Shown here piece by piece: positions 4,098-63,800 of a stretch of 64,000 nt of DNA (position 1 is the stretch's first letter; every line of letters begins with the position of its first letter). The position numbers were made by a program, and so were the translations under genes. Under the pieces are notes generated by a model that did no database searches, was not told where the DNA came from, and saw only the letters and a program-made list of their open reading frames with translations. The stretch lies in assembly GCF_000875775.1 (NCBI RefSeq), contig NZ_CP010868.1, positions 1,437,707 through 1,501,706 on the forward strand. Reading direction: 5' to 3'. The stretch comes from Nitrosopumilus piranensis (GTDB lineage: Archaea; Thermoproteota; Nitrososphaeria; Nitrososphaerales; Nitrosopumilaceae).

Positions 4098-4172
4098 GCT
4101 CCTATAGTGTAGTCCGGTTAAGCATACAGCCCTCTCAAGGCTGTGACCCGGGTTCAAATCCCGGTGGGAGCA
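4098..4172 (+). tRNA. tRNA-Glu (CTC anticodon)
   Basis: Complete cloverleaf: acceptor GCTCCTA pairs with TGGGAGC; anticodon stem CAGCC/GGCTG encloses loop CTCTCAA with anticodon CTC; T arm CCGGG-TTCAAAT-CCCGG; discriminator A. CCA is not encoded. A tyrosine recombinase starts 45 nt downstream, so this gene is a plausible integration target. Confidence 0.93.
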
Positions 4173-24479: not shown

Positions 24480-25220
24480 ATGGGTTTGTTGGATAGATTA
24501 AGTCGTACGTTTGACAAGCATGGATATGATCTAGATGGGTATGACAAAGATGGGTTTGACAAAAAAGGTTATGATAAAAACGGGTATGACAAAGATGGGT
24601 TTGACAAAAAAGGTTATGATAAGAATGGATACAACAAAAACGGGTTTAACAAAAAAGGTTATGATAAAAAAGGATATGATAAAAAAGGATACAAAGATGG
24701 GTTTGACAAAGATGGGTTTGATTTCAAGGGTTACAACATAAATGGATTCAACAAAAATGGGTATGATGAAAACGGGTATGACAAAGATGGGTATGACAAT
24801 CGGGGTTTTTCTATAGATGGAATTCACATCGATACAAAAATAGCCTTTGATAAAGAGGGGTTTAACAAAAAAGGTTACGATGAAAATGGATACAATGAAA
24901 ATGGATATGATAAAAATGGATACAACAAAAATGGGTATGACAGAGACGGATATGATTTAGATGGGTATAACAAAAAAGGTTATGATAAAAAAGGATTCAA
25001 CATAGATGGGTATGATGAAAATGGATATGATAGTAGCGGATATGATGAAAATGGATACAATGAAAATGGATATGATTTAGATGGTTATGATGAAAATGGA
25101 TATGATAGTAGCGGATATGATAAACTAGGATATGATCACCTAGGTTATGATAAAGAAGGATACAACCAAGAAGGATTCAACAAATTCAATAAAAAGAAAA
25201 ACGAAGTACTCAGTGATTAA
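24480..25220 (+). CDS. Pentad-repeat protein G-[YF]-[DN]-x-x, 246 aa
   Basis: Apart from 14 N-terminal residues (M-G-L-L-D-R-L-S-R-T-F) and a short Lys-rich tail, the protein consists of about forty five-residue units such as G-Y-D-K-D, G-F-D-K-K and G-Y-D-E-N, with one interruption near residue 115 (G-I-H-I-D-T-K-I-A). There is no signal peptide or membrane helix. The D-x-D/N-G spacing is reminiscent of calcium-loop motifs, while the regular aromatic every five residues suggests a solenoid or beta-helix. Function unknown. It is flanked by direct repeats B and C. Confidence 0.75.
   Translation: MGLLDRLSRTFDKHGYDLDGYDKDGFDKKGYDKNGYDKDGFDKKGYDKNGYNKNGFNKKGYDKKGYDKKGYKDGFDKDGFDFKGYNINGFNKNGYDENGYDKDGYDNRGFSIDGIHIDTKIAFDKEGFNKKGYDENGYNENGYDKNGYNKNGYDRDGYDLDGYNKKGYDKKGFNIDGYDENGYDSSGYDENGYNENGYDLDGYDENGYDSSGYDKLGYDHLGYDKEGYNQEGFNKFNKKKNEVLSD
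24522..25190 (+). repeat. Tandem 15-bp coding repeat array
   Basis: The DNA unit GG(T/A)TATGA(T/C)AAAAA(C/T) repeats with variations at 15-bp period over about 670 bp; blocks such as GGTTATGATAAAAAAGGA recur exactly, implying slippage or unequal crossing-over. Confidence 0.8.
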
Positions 25221-25727: not shown

Positions 25728-25884
25728 TAAAAATTAGTTAAGATTATTGAAGATAACCTTAATGACTAAACATCTTTAGAAATGTTTGAAAAATACAAGG
25801 TTTTTCAACAAATGTAAATCTAATCAATCAATGTAGGATTGTTTTGATTAATAATCTTGGAATGGACTTAATCAAATTTAATTC

Positions 25885-25956
25885 ACGGAAGCTGAGAGGG
25901 AACAGTGGCAATTCTCAGCAAAGTTATGTTAATCATAACTGCATTCCAGCTTCCGT
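25885..25956. ncRNA. Candidate structured RNA A (branched, with alternative pairing)
   Basis: ACGGAAGCTG (25885-25894) pairs perfectly with CAGCTTCCGT (25947-25956). Inside are hairpin AGTTATG/CATAACT (25922-25928 with 25934-25940, loop TTAAT) and the alternative stem GCTGAGA/TCTCAGC (25891-25897 with 25913-25919), which competes with the outer stem for GCTG. The segment is richer in G+C than its surroundings and holds no ORF. Two mutually exclusive pairings recall a switch. No Rfam class recognised; strand unknown. Confidence 0.45.
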
Positions 25957-26020
25957 CGCAATAGTTGACAACTCATCACTAAAAAAACACATGTCTTTTT
26001 GAAATTAACGTTCTCTAAAA

Positions 26021-26127
26021 ATCAGGAAGCCAACTGCATCCACCCTCTACCTAATGCTGCTGTAAGCGAGCATCAGTAACACGATGGGAATTTCATATGA
26101 CAATGGATATTGTGTCGGCTCCTTGAT
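26021..26127 (+). ncRNA. Candidate structured RNA B (three-way junction)
   Basis: Outer helix ATCAGGAAGCC (26021-26031) with GGCTCCTTGAT (26117-26127): 11 positions with one G-U and one mismatch. Inner hairpin ATGCTGCT...AGCGAGCAT (26054-26073). Second helix ACACGAT/ATTGTGT (26079-26085 with 26109-26115), whose G-U pair favours the plus strand. No ORF is present. It could be one transcript with candidate A, 64 nt upstream. Confidence 0.45.
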
Positions 26128-26269
26128 ACTATTACTCATTCATCACATAAAATATGATCAGAAAAAATCTTAAAACATGTTTAAATTTGATAGATTTTTT
26201 TAAAATTTTTAAAAAAATATTCAGGTTTCAAAAACTCATTCTTAGATAACATAAACCCCTAATCAAAAC

Positions 26270-26440
26270 ATGTCATTGTTAAAGACAACAAGATTGACCA
26301 AGCAAGGAAACCGCTTTGAAATTGAGATTCCTCCTGAATGTGTTGAAAAACTAGGATGGAGAAATGGGCTTGTTTTAGAGATAGACATTCAAGATTCTGA
26401 AGCAGTCATAAAGAAATTACAAGGGTTTGTAGGAAAATGA
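26270..26440 (+). CDS. AbrB/SpoVT-like DNA-binding protein, 56 aa
   Basis: T-R-L-T-K-Q-G-N-R-F-E-I-E-I-P-P-E-C-V-E-K-L-G-W-R-N-G-L-V-L-E-I is the canonical AbrB signature (strand, I-P-P-E cap, L-G-W turn, strand). A likely dimeric transcription regulator or antitoxin. It ends 4 nt before the convergent 26445 gene and starts just beyond the structured-RNA candidates. Confidence 0.75.
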   Translation: MSLLKTTRLTKQGNRFEIEIPPECVEKLGWRNGLVLEIDIQDSEAVIKKLQGFVGK

Positions 26441-26444
26441 AACC

Positions 26445-26819
26445 TCAATCCTCTAAAGACTCTGTATTTTCTTCTAGCAAGCCCAGAGACATGCCATGGT
26501 TTTTTCTTCTAGTATTACTTGTATTGTTAGGATTAATCTCTCTCTTCAAAATGTTTGATTGAAACGATTTGTCAATAGAAAATTGTTGAAGATAGCTGTA
26601 ATGAATTTTCAAAAAATCAACAATTTGCCTGTTTTCGTCCTTTTTTAGGCATGAATTAGTTGCAAACATGCCAAGATCTTTCAAATCAGACCTTAGTTTG
26701 GTATGTGATTTTCTGATTTCCTTTACATTGTGTGATTTTGAAAATTCTTTGATGTTTCCTTCAATTTCTAAAACATCCTTTTCTAATGCATGAATATTTT
26801 TAGTAATGCTTGAGTGCAT
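26445..26819 (-). CDS. Helical coiled-coil protein, 124 aa (paralogue of 31917)
   Basis: Residues 1-80 are helical: I-H-A-L-E-K-D-V-L-E-I-E, then K-S-H-T-K-L-R-S-D-L-K-D-L-G, then V-D-F-L-K-I-H-Y-S-Y-L-Q-Q. The same three segments occur in the 84-aa protein at 31917, so they are paralogues; the 40 extra C-terminal residues are low complexity. No known function. Confidence 0.6.
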   Translation of the reverse strand: MHSSITKNIHALEKDVLEIEGNIKEFSKSHNVKEIRKSHTKLRSDLKDLGMFATNSCLKKDENRQIVDFLKIHYSYLQQFSIDKSFQSNILKREINPNNTSNTRRKNHGMSLGLLEENTESLED

Positions 26820-26954
26820 AAATGGTTAATATGTTGGGATCAAAGATAACTCTTTTCTCATACAAATTAATCATTGTAAGTAATTTCAAATTAATTTAAA
26901 CATATTTTCATGTTTTAGATGGAGAGTTTTTTATTCCATATTAGAATGAGTTAT

Positions 26955-27053
26955 GATGGTAGTAGTCAACTGAATGAAAACGTTGGTGCGATAAAAAAGG
27001 TCAACGGACAAGGACAATGTTCTTGCGTAAGGTTTCAGTGGATTACTATCATC
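26955..27053 (+). ncRNA. Candidate structured RNA C, 13-bp closing stem
   Basis: GATGGTAGTAGTC (26955-26967) pairs along all 13 positions with GATTACTATCATC (27041-27053), including two G-U pairs that work only in the plus-strand RNA. Inside: ACTGAA/TTCAGT, CGTTG/CAACG and hairpin CAAGGA/TTCTTG (loop CAATG). A T-rich run (TTTTCT) follows. No ORF. The wobble-conserving long stem is the best RNA evidence in the window. Class unknown. Confidence 0.5.
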
Positions 27054-27057
27054 TTTT

Positions 27058-27768
27058 CTAATATGTCAAATGATACTTTAGTTCATTGATTTTATTTTTG
27101 AGAACAGTTGCAATTATCCTATACATCTCTATTGTATCTGAATCAAGATAGATGTCTTTGAGAAATTTCCATTGGGATTCAATTACAATTTTTGAATTTG
27201 TTTTAACATCTTTTTCTTGTGGGGTGTATCTAGAGATAACAATTGTTCGCTCTTTGAGTAGGCATTTTATCATCAATGCTCGTAATCTTTGTTCTTGGTA
27301 TAATGCATCTGCAACATTATCTCTGACTAGCCCAGGAGGTAATGTTGTGAGTTTTTGATATCCACTCCACACAAAATCTTCAACTTTTGAATTGAATAAT
27401 CCTTTCTTTATTGTGGTAATAGTTCCAAAGTCTAAAGGCCCTAATTGTATTGAGGGCGGAAGTGACAAAAAGAATCGTAGTTTCCTCCAAGAATGTTTGT
27501 GAACACCCATCCCAACATGGCTTCCCATCACAAAGTCACATTTTGCATATTCTTGTTTTTTTAGGATTTCAATAAAATCAATTGGAGAGTTTTCTAGTTT
27601 TAATGTCCCTACATGTCCAATTCCATCAGTAGTTCCAAGAAAAACAGCATCAACGTTATCTGCTTCAAAATCTAGTCTTTGTTCTGAAACCCTAGAATCA
27701 ATTCCATGTTTTTTGAGATGTGCTTGCAGTTTTTCTAACTCTGGTTCAACATGTAATAACATGGACAT
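27058..27768 (-). CDS. Conserved hypothetical protein, 236 aa
   Basis: Soluble alpha/beta protein. Visible patterns include V-F-L-G-T-T-D-G-I-G-H-V-G-T-L, F-V-M-G-S-H-V-G-M-G-V-H-K-H-S-W and a basic helical C-terminus (M-Y-R-I-I-A-T-V-L-K-N-K). The glycine/histidine-rich loop might bind a nucleotide or metal, but no family is recognised. Divergent from the Lrp-type regulator at 27874. Confidence 0.6.
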   Translation of the reverse strand: MSMLLHVEPELEKLQAHLKKHGIDSRVSEQRLDFEADNVDAVFLGTTDGIGHVGTLKLENSPIDFIEILKKQEYAKCDFVMGSHVGMGVHKHSWRKLRFFLSLPPSIQLGPLDFGTITTIKKGLFNSKVEDFVWSGYQKLTTLPPGLVRDNVADALYQEQRLRALMIKCLLKERTIVISRYTPQEKDVKTNSKIVIESQWKFLKDIYLDSDTIEMYRIIATVLKNKINELKYHLTY

Positions 27769-28630: not shown

Positions 28631-28719
28631 TTTAGGATTGATTTAATAGAATTTATTGGTCATTGTGCCAATACAAAAAATTTGTTTACAAAAAATATTA
28701 TTTTTTAAAATATTGAATA

Positions 28720-28806
28720 GCAGTAATCTTACAAAATCAGGCTTTCTCTGAGTACAGCCCATTGATCAGTTTAACTTTTCAATGTTGTTCATTGTTTGAC
28801 TACTGC
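28720..28806. ncRNA. Weak candidate structured RNA D
   Basis: GCAGTA (28720-28725) pairs with TACTGC (28801-28806). Inside lie hairpins GGCT/AGCC (about 28740-28759) and CAATG/CATTG (28780-28794). An alternative outer pairing with AAAGTTACT just downstream is possible. Short stems, so tentative. Confidence 0.22.
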
Positions 28807-28891
28807 AAAGTTACTACCATATATTGGAATAAAAGTACGATTGTTTGAATTCTTAAAACTTGTTTAAAATATGATGATTTTTTAAAATGGT

Positions 28892-29050: not shown

Positions 29051-29290
29051 CTAACTTTGTCCTACTACACCAGTTAATGTCAAAGTAGCTCGGATGTATG
29101 GCAGTTTACGAATCTTCCAGGTAATCTCTTCACGTAACTTGTCAGTAGAATCAGCAATGACTTCTGCAATAATATCATATGCCCCAAATGTTCCATGAGC
29201 TTCTTTTACAGATGATAGACTTCTCAGAGCCTCTAGAATCTCTTTTTCTGATCCTAAACTACAATTAATTAGCACATATGCCTTTTTCAT
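29051..29290 (-). CDS. Stand-alone Lrp effector (RAM) domain protein
   Basis: 79 residues covering only the RAM domain: A-Y-V-L-I-N-C-S-L-G-S-E-K-E-I...H-G-T-F-G-A-Y-D-I-I-A-E-V...I-R-A-T-L-T-L. No HTH. Such demi-Lrp proteins bind small ligands and can modulate full Lrp regulators. Closely similar to 30669. Confidence 0.85.
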   Translation of the reverse strand: MKKAYVLINCSLGSEKEILEALRSLSSVKEAHGTFGAYDIIAEVIADSTDKLREEITWKIRKLPYIRATLTLTGVVGQS

Positions 29291-29583: not shown

Positions 29584-29934
29584 TCATTCTATTAGTTGAC
29601 GAATTTTTTCAATAATGACGTTGTGTTCTGCTGTTGTTTCCATTCCAATTACAAGTACAGCATAATTTTTTAGAGGAAAAGTAATTCTTTTGACTTCTTC
29701 ATACTCAGTAAGAGAATATTTTCCTGTACCTAAAAATGGATACATCAATTCACGTGTTTTCCAACGTAGTAAAGTATTGTGAATGGATTTTGTTAATTCA
29801 TCTGGAGGCAATAGTGATGAAATCCCATCATGCATTCCTCCTGCTAACAACTCACCATTATTATGATAAACATAAACAGATCTTATCTGCGGTTCTAGTC
29901 CCAGAATTAATGAACAGAGTTTTTTAGGATTCAT
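29584..29934 (-). CDS. Small roadblock/longin-like sensory protein (paralogue of 25335)
   Basis: 116 residues with the pattern I-R-S-V-Y-V-Y-H-N-N-G-E-L-L-A-G-G...G-K-Y-S-L-T-E-Y-E-E-V-K-R-I-T-F-P-L-K-N-Y-A-V-L-V-I-G, parallel to the protein at 25335. Probably the same uncharacterised thaumarchaeal family. No catalytic residues seen. Confidence 0.65.
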   Translation of the reverse strand: MNPKKLCSLILGLEPQIRSVYVYHNNGELLAGGMHDGISSLLPPDELTKSIHNTLLRWKTRELMYPFLGTGKYSLTEYEEVKRITFPLKNYAVLVIGMETTAEHNVIIEKIRQLIE

Positions 29935-30668: not shown

Positions 30669-30908
30669 ATGGACACTGCCTTTGTATTAGTTAACTGCGA
30701 CCTTGGGGCAGAAGAAGAAGTGCTTGTAGAACTAAAACATATTGATTCTGTAAAGGAAGTATGTGGAACATTTGGAGCATACGATGTTATTGCAAAAATT
30801 GAAGATTCAGATAGAGACAAAGTCAGAGATACAATTACTTGGAATATTAGGAAAATTCCACACGTACGCTCTACATTGACACTAGTTGGGATACCAGGAC
30901 AGTCCTAG
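30669..30908 (+). CDS. Stand-alone Lrp effector (RAM) domain protein
   Basis: 79 residues, RAM domain only, with C-G-T-F-G-A-Y-D-V-I-A-K-I and the same P-G-Q-S ending type as the paralogue at 29051. Separated by 5 nt from the tandem-RAM gene at 30914, so they form an operon. Confidence 0.85.
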   Translation: MDTAFVLVNCDLGAEEEVLVELKHIDSVKEVCGTFGAYDVIAKIEDSDRDKVRDTITWNIRKIPHVRSTLTLVGIPGQS

Positions 30909-30913
30909 AAAAA

Positions 30914-31444
30914 ATGGCCAAAGCTTATGTTTTAATTATTAATGAATCAGGAAAAGAAGGTTCAGTAATTTCTCATCTACGTAACATACAAAGTGTTTCT
31001 AATGCATATGGTACATTTGGAAGTTATGATATTTTAGCAAAGCTAGAATCATCAGATGAGAAAAACATTCAACAAGACATTTCAAATGGAATAAGAAAAA
31101 TACCAAACATAAGATCCACACTCACACTACTAGTTGACAAAAGATCAGGAATTTCTAAAACAAGTGATACAGAGCAAAAAGTACTAGATGAGCATATGGC
31201 TCAAGCCTACATTACAATTCATTGTTTAAAATCAGAAGAAGAAAATATTATCAGTAAATTAAATGCAGTTGCCGAAGTAGTAGAGGCACACACACTAGTA
31301 GGAAACTATGAAATCATTAGCAAAGTTGTAGCACCAACTTATAATGAAATATCAGAAATCATAAGCAAAAAGATTAGAAAGATTCCTGGAATAAAATCTA
31401 CAATAACAATTAATCTAATAAACAATCAGGGATTTGATAAATAA
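30914..31444 (+). CDS. Tandem double Lrp effector (RAM) domain protein
   Basis: 176 residues with two RAM domains: residues 3-75 (Y-G-T-F-G-S-Y-D-I-L-A-K-L) and about 95-170 (T-L-V-G-N-Y-E-I-I-S-K-V). The linker contains a methionine that could start a shorter product. No DNA-binding domain. Probably a ligand sensor working with Lrp-type regulators; a fused dimer is unusual. Confidence 0.8.
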   Translation: MAKAYVLIINESGKEGSVISHLRNIQSVSNAYGTFGSYDILAKLESSDEKNIQQDISNGIRKIPNIRSTLTLLVDKRSGISKTSDTEQKVLDEHMAQAYITIHCLKSEEENIISKLNAVAEVVEAHTLVGNYEIISKVVAPTYNEISEIISKKIRKIPGIKSTITINLINNQGFDK

Positions 31445-63722: not shown

Positions 63723-63796
63723 GCAGTTATAGTACAGTCTGGTTAGTACTCGTGCTTGCCAAGTACGTGACCCGGGTTCAAATCCCGGTAACTGCA
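63723..63796 (+). tRNA. tRNA-Gly (GCC anticodon)
   Basis: Acceptor GCAGTTA/TAACTGC; anticodon stem CGTGC/GTACG with loop TTGCCAA, anticodon GCC; T arm CCGGG-TTCAAAT-CCCGG; discriminator A. The next three bases are CCA, so the 3' end may be encoded, unlike tRNA-Glu in this window. Confidence 0.93.
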
Positions 63797-63800
63797 CCAC

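Follow-up and report, generated by a model that had tools for sequence, protein, structure and literature searches.

The window considered here, i.e., the whole 64,000-nt stretch of Nitrosopumilus piranensis DNA that was analysed (contig NZ_CP010868.1, positions 1,437,707 to 1,501,706), contains at 26955-27053 on the plus strand a 99-nt element whose two ends pair with each other. All 13 positions of this closing stem, P1 (26955-26967, GATGGTAGTAGTC, with 27041-27053, GATTACTATCATC), are paired, two of them as G-U (26959/27049 and 26965/27043), and the pairing is found in both the fold of this copy and the alignment. Within P1, single-copy folds place an inner stem, P1b (ACUGAA at 26969-26974 with UUCAGU at 27034-27039), and alignment pairing places two hairpins: P2 (26981-27006; 26981-26985 with 27002-27006 around a 16-nt loop, also supported by covariation) and P3 (27009-27025; 27009-27015 with 27019-27025, family core GUC-AAUG-GAY). 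The run TTTTCT trails the element, and its first four positions (27054-27057), immediately 3' of P1, form a U-run that is a putative terminator, resting on T enrichment over 102 copies. Only 5 nt separate this copy (copy 1) from the end of a 236-aa gene on the minus strand (27058-27768), whose protein has no Pfam match; because the gene is convergent, copy 1 is not its leader.

The plus strand of 26940-27070 folds with a minimum free energy of -36.5 kcal/mol, against -22.4 +/- 3.1 in dinucleotide shuffles (z -4.55; 0/200), and the minus strand of the same region is weaker (-22.6, z -3.22). The same holds across the family, the mean folding z of 81 non-redundant copies being -4.29 in sense vs. 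-3.29 in antisense. The original prediction was of an intergenic plus-strand structured RNA, with a closing stem of 13 pairs, including two G-U pairs that favour that strand, three possible internal helices and a T-rich run behind it. The closing pairs held exactly, as did the helices, the run and the choice of strand, and the RNA itself is supported, with its transcription inferred. The claim that no coding frame is present failed, in that a 56-codon ATG open reading frame (26919-27089, +) crosses the element. Missed altogether were a second copy in the window, a dedicated promoter, the spread of the RNA into a second family of archaea, and a form of it that precedes genes for transcription factor B (TFB).

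Upstream of copy 1 lie a conserved promoter box, TTTAAACATATTTTCAT (26895-26911, +; from pattern scans and the 102-copy profile), and a TATA-like box, TTTTTTATT (26927-26935, +), spanning positions -28 to -20 relative to the start of the RNA. The upstream box, with a family consensus of about AAAnTAAACAAATnTTnAt at roughly -60 to -44, has no other zero-mismatch match in the window. Over the 102 copies, a TATA-like box at -27 to -19 is present in 95, T occupies positions -26 to -23 in 88-94%, and most carry an A-rich AAACAAAT box some 30 bp upstream of the TATA-like box; copies from the second family have a TATA box of another form, TTATATTTT. Scanning for TAAACNNATNTTCATT-N15-30-TTTATTTNAT returned 14 places in 11 genus genomes (reversed control, 0), 12 of which lead into the RNA family or a diverged form of it, and a looser pattern matched the 1.71-Mb home genome three times, two of these before the two RNA copies (reversed control, 1). 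At the other end, T fills positions +2 to +4 past the stem in 72-86% of the 102 copies (81-86% at +2 and +3) vs. about 37% later, and TTTT occurs within 12 nt of the stem in 62/102 vs. 20/102 farther downstream, leaving 40/102 without it in those 12 nt. A promoter of its own and a terminator-like end meet the criterion for an autonomous small-RNA gene, on sequence evidence only; transcription is inferred.

In two genomes, the same promoter boxes stand before a different structured, stem-closed element, GAAAGCUGA..UCAGCUUUC (L029 766-807 in G042; L030 1501-1542 in G077), and it is possible that this promoter serves more than one RNA. We set aside an outer inverted repeat around copy 1 (CATATTAGAA/TTCTAATATG): its 5' arm adjoins the TATA box and, among the relatives looked at, a similar one occurs only in the nearest, G058.

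Upstream of copy 1 the window holds other features. A second conserved intergenic stretch, at 26017-26150 (+), is probably another non-coding RNA: about 25 of the 95 genus genomes match the query at the DNA level, largely over this section, and there is a paralogue at G000:C1:856827-856958 (80%), while its single-sequence fold is unremarkable (z -1.08). At 25884-25962 (+) there is a strong stem-closed element, GGAAGCUG..CAGCUUCC (z -3.85), for which the close relative G058 gave the only full-length alignment, and at 24480-25220 (+) a 246-aa open reading frame consists almost wholly of GYDKDGFDKKGYDKNG-like repeats.

Copy 1 belongs to a family of RNAs of about 100 nt in ammonia-oxidizing archaea, in which a closing stem of 10-13 bp leads into a three-way junction bearing two hairpins and a U-run follows the stem. 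BLASTN against 60 genus genomes recovered three homologues (79-86% identity), and the resulting four-sequence alignment, which already gave four compensatory pairs, was made into a covariance model, R1, with matches in 12 of 95 genus genomes. Model R2 (ten of the sequences from the R1 stage and three from the promoter scan) raised this to 52 matches in 30/95 genus genomes and reached 9 of the 22 genera of the home family. Of 400 genomes from the class, 92 were matched by model R3, built from 38 sequences, a patchy distribution over 12 genera: 11 from the home family and one, represented by four genomes, from the second family, which belongs to the same order. Genomes carry up to six copies, often grouped in one variable region, and the well-populated genus g11 is Nitrosarchaeum by a pattern scan of named genomes. 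An RNA subtype of about 147 nt has an extra insertion within or beside P2 (L075, L081, L083, L155). Many weak model matches were judged real because they come with the family promoter, a feature that lies outside the model; two others (G083:C23:14574 and G000:C1:379447) had no promoter and were rejected as chance.

According to R3, the home genome has exactly two copies, both inside the window. Copy 1 is matched at E = 7e-24 (R1), 1e-14 (R2) and 2e-11 (R3) in searches of its own genome with models that contain its sequence. Copy 2 (28716-28810, -) has the same fold (z -3.22) and was matched by R2, from which it is absent, at E 1.3e-6, and by R3 at E 2.0e-8; its promoter, TAAACAAGTTTTAA ... TTTTATTCCA, lies at 28825-28866 (-), as located by a pattern match in the home genome.

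A covariance search among relatives for compensatory changes, which the original prediction had put forward as its check, was run and passed. Alignment A8, which was made by MAFFT from 38 sequences and not fitted to a structure, has 90.7% of its cells paired, and this falls to 24-53% when the partner is slid by 1-3 columns. Both sides change in 18 of 24 pairs, and double-sided changes occupy 96 cells vs. 32.6 in shuffles (0/500). By helix, the inner ten pairs of P1 are paired in 96.6% of cells over the 38 sequences (six pairs with double-sided change), P2 in 95.2% (5/6 pairs), and the P3 core in 89.1% (3/4 core pairs); P1b was left unscored because its register differs among subtypes. Because kinship can by itself give the appearance of covariation, we also used a phylogeny-aware null in which substitutions are reshuffled per branch on a tree. 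By this test the top five of 4,746 column pairs with 38 sequences, and the top four of 4,643 with 81 sequences, were all structural, with P2 pairs ranking among the best. When only structural pairs are tested (the two-set test), seven pairs with 38 sequences (values rescaled by 24/4746) and four with 81 reach E <= 0.05; in the one-set test over all column pairs, no pair passed the stricter threshold in either the 38- or the 81-sequence set. The fold is supported, then, to the level of the two-set test only, where the proposed structure is assumed in advance.

Some marine relatives in the home genus carry the RNA directly ahead of a TFB gene; there are 15 such copies, 8-19 nt from the gene, a count comprising 14 of the 102 copies (intact and damaged TFBs together) and one diverged copy at L028. 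These leader copies run from the RNA through the U-run to an AUG 8-10 nt past the stem; the exception (G088:C16) has its AUG about 19-25 nt past. A TFB search over 95 genus genomes found the RNA 8-10 nt before the AUG in 12/12 members of one TFB subfamily, i.e., the 12 proteins aligned from the query N-terminus at >= 50% identity. The positions of TFBs and RNAs were matched by hand, and the upstream regions of further paralogues were not all covered. TFB remnants follow two more copies. Outside the home genus, a TFB directly follows 0/42 copies; 29/42 have a convergent next gene, and a same-strand open reading frame begins within 50 nt in 1/42. The criterion that most members have a same-strand gene directly downstream is failed by the family.

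At one locus (L017, G058:C32, around 1774-2765), a TFB gene lies between two RNA copies, one of them its own upstream copy; the 3' end of the gene is truncated at the start of the promoter belonging to the second copy, as if, possibly, from recombination there. Among other neighbours, the orthologue of the 236-aa gene adjoins the RNA in two relatives (G058 and G040), and homologues of it lie within 1.5 kb of 9/102 copies. Small proteins of one family (AYVLVNCDLG..) are encoded in the window at 29051-29290, 30669-30908 and 30914-31444, with homologues within 1.5 kb of 20/102 RNA copies, and homologues of a 116-aa protein (29584-29934) are near 19/102.

The family, its fold and strand, the promoter, the U-run and the adjacency to TFB are shown by sequence. 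The explanation that we consider likely is that this is an autonomous small-RNA gene that subsequently took on a second role as a TFB leader; transcription, action in trans, a protein partner and attenuation are all inferred. In this model, a TATA-type promoter with its dedicated upstream box would start a non-coding transcript of about 100 nt, which would fold into the closing stem, three-way junction and two hairpins, and would end at the U-run just past the stem. The ancestral, stand-alone form would most likely be trans-acting, folded and protein-bound. Since P1 and the P3 core (GUC-NNNG-GAY) are conserved in sequence, something appears to read the fold; and because both the pairing and the primary sequence of the stem and P3 are under selection, recognition of the whole fold is suggested. 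That the RNA acts in trans together with a protein is nevertheless an inference that could as readily prove wrong as right.

Within the home genus, the unit would have been duplicated, with some copies ending up directly before TFB genes as a 5' leader, where the amount of TFB would probably be set either through termination in the U-run or through opening of the stem, which lies 8-10 nt ahead of the AUG. We regard the stand-alone form as ancestral and the leader as derived because no copy in other genera precedes a TFB and 29 have convergent next genes, because copies of the type found in the window retain compensatory changes, and because the next gene in the window is convergent. This order is inferred, without an RNA tree made for that purpose.

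The strongest alternative is that the RNA is at heart a cis-regulatory leader of TFB, i.e., a riboswitch or attenuator, and that stand-alone copies are leaders that have lost their gene. In its favor are the 8-10 nt spacing to the AUG in all 12 members of the TFB subfamily and the TFB remnants behind two copies, and the U-run could be an attenuator. Against it, none of the 42 copies in other genera stands directly before a TFB, and the window-type copies, mostly without a TFB, have kept their compensatory changes. We consider this alternative unlikely.

Less probable still is that the element is a structured terminator of the convergent 236-aa gene, or the 3' end of its mRNA, and not a separate gene. 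That gene does end 5 nt from copy 1, and the orthologue is adjacent in two relatives; however, the wobble pairs and the better folding are on the opposite strand, a promoter lies upstream on the plus side, and most copies are away from any such gene (9/102 within 1.5 kb), such that copies with other neighbors already contradict this reading. A mobile repeat or transposable DNA element whose ends are complementary, with the RNA merely incidental, could account for genomes with as many as six copies, often clustered in one variable region. This too is very unlikely, given that there is covariation with G-U pairs on one strand, that the positions of the promoter and U-run are fixed, and that viral contigs gave no match to the strict core pattern (which does not exclude diverged copies); target-site duplications lie outside the evidence. 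A small protein from the 56-codon open reading frame can be discounted almost entirely: although the frame is open across the element in the window, it is attributable to chance because a spanning ATG frame occurs in only 13/100 copies, copy lengths occupy all three frames, and there is no third-position excess of substitutions vs. the two equal-length relatives compared.

Beyond recruitment of an autonomous RNA gene, a bolder reading, which we think improbable as a single joint claim, is that the family is a lineage-specific ribonucleoprotein or regulatory RNA that binds or controls the transcription machinery, that it predates the split of the home family from the second family of the order, and that TFB made from an RNA-led mRNA binds the RNA or the shared promoter, so that free copies would serve as a TFB decoy or set point.

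As far as Rfam and the open-access literature searched can show, the RNA family is previously undescribed. At gathering thresholds, Rfam 15 recognized only tRNAs in the window and in seven loci with relatives (two of the second family), and a scan of 25740-27100 at permissive settings yielded two minus-strand matches, both below threshold and both elsewhere. ARAGORN found only tRNA-Glu (4098-4172) and tRNA-Gly (63723-63799), and the RNA element is neither a tRNA nor a tmRNA. Open-access literature on Nitrosopumilus and Nitrososphaera ncRNAs held no earlier description, which does not exclude publication elsewhere. Ammonia-oxidizing archaea rank with the most abundant cells of the sea and of soils, and neither Rfam nor the literature searched contains a lineage-wide regulatory RNA for them; the present family is defined well enough to be searched for in existing transcriptomes.

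Like the archaeal C/D and H/ACA guide RNAs, the new RNA is short, intergenic and archaeal; it differs in having no Rfam guide-RNA match above threshold, an end-closed three-way junction and a U-run. H/ACA guides carry an ACA box after the closing stem, whereas here positions +1 to +5 are mostly T (102 copies) and the box is missing. C/D guides have a C box near the 5' end and a D box near the 3' end, whereas these termini pair with each other (GRUAGYARYC and GRYURCUAYC; alignments A6-A8), as judged by reading the alignments and not with a dedicated C/D program. Tan1, an abundant ncRNA of marine group II Euryarchaeota found from transcript data (PMC5069720), is likewise an ncRNA of planktonic archaea but comes from another phylum, and no sequence comparison was made. 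Comparable too are the candidate structured RNAs from comparative genomics (PMC2864571), which also combine a conserved fold and covariation with no assigned function, some lying before genes and some free-standing; that text does not mention Nitrosopumilus, Cenarchaeum or crenarchaea, and the new RNA has no match in Rfam 15. Compared with riboswitch and attenuator leaders, most copies precede no gene, no ligand is known, and TFB is the sole candidate for a regulated function, in one genus; the likeness consists of a compact junction RNA, a U-run and, in 15 copies, a start codon. If the mRNAs of ammonia-oxidizing archaea are mostly leaderless, a structured TFB leader is unusual. The position of the RNA ahead of a TFB paralogue gives direct access to the question of how these organisms deploy their numerous TFBs.
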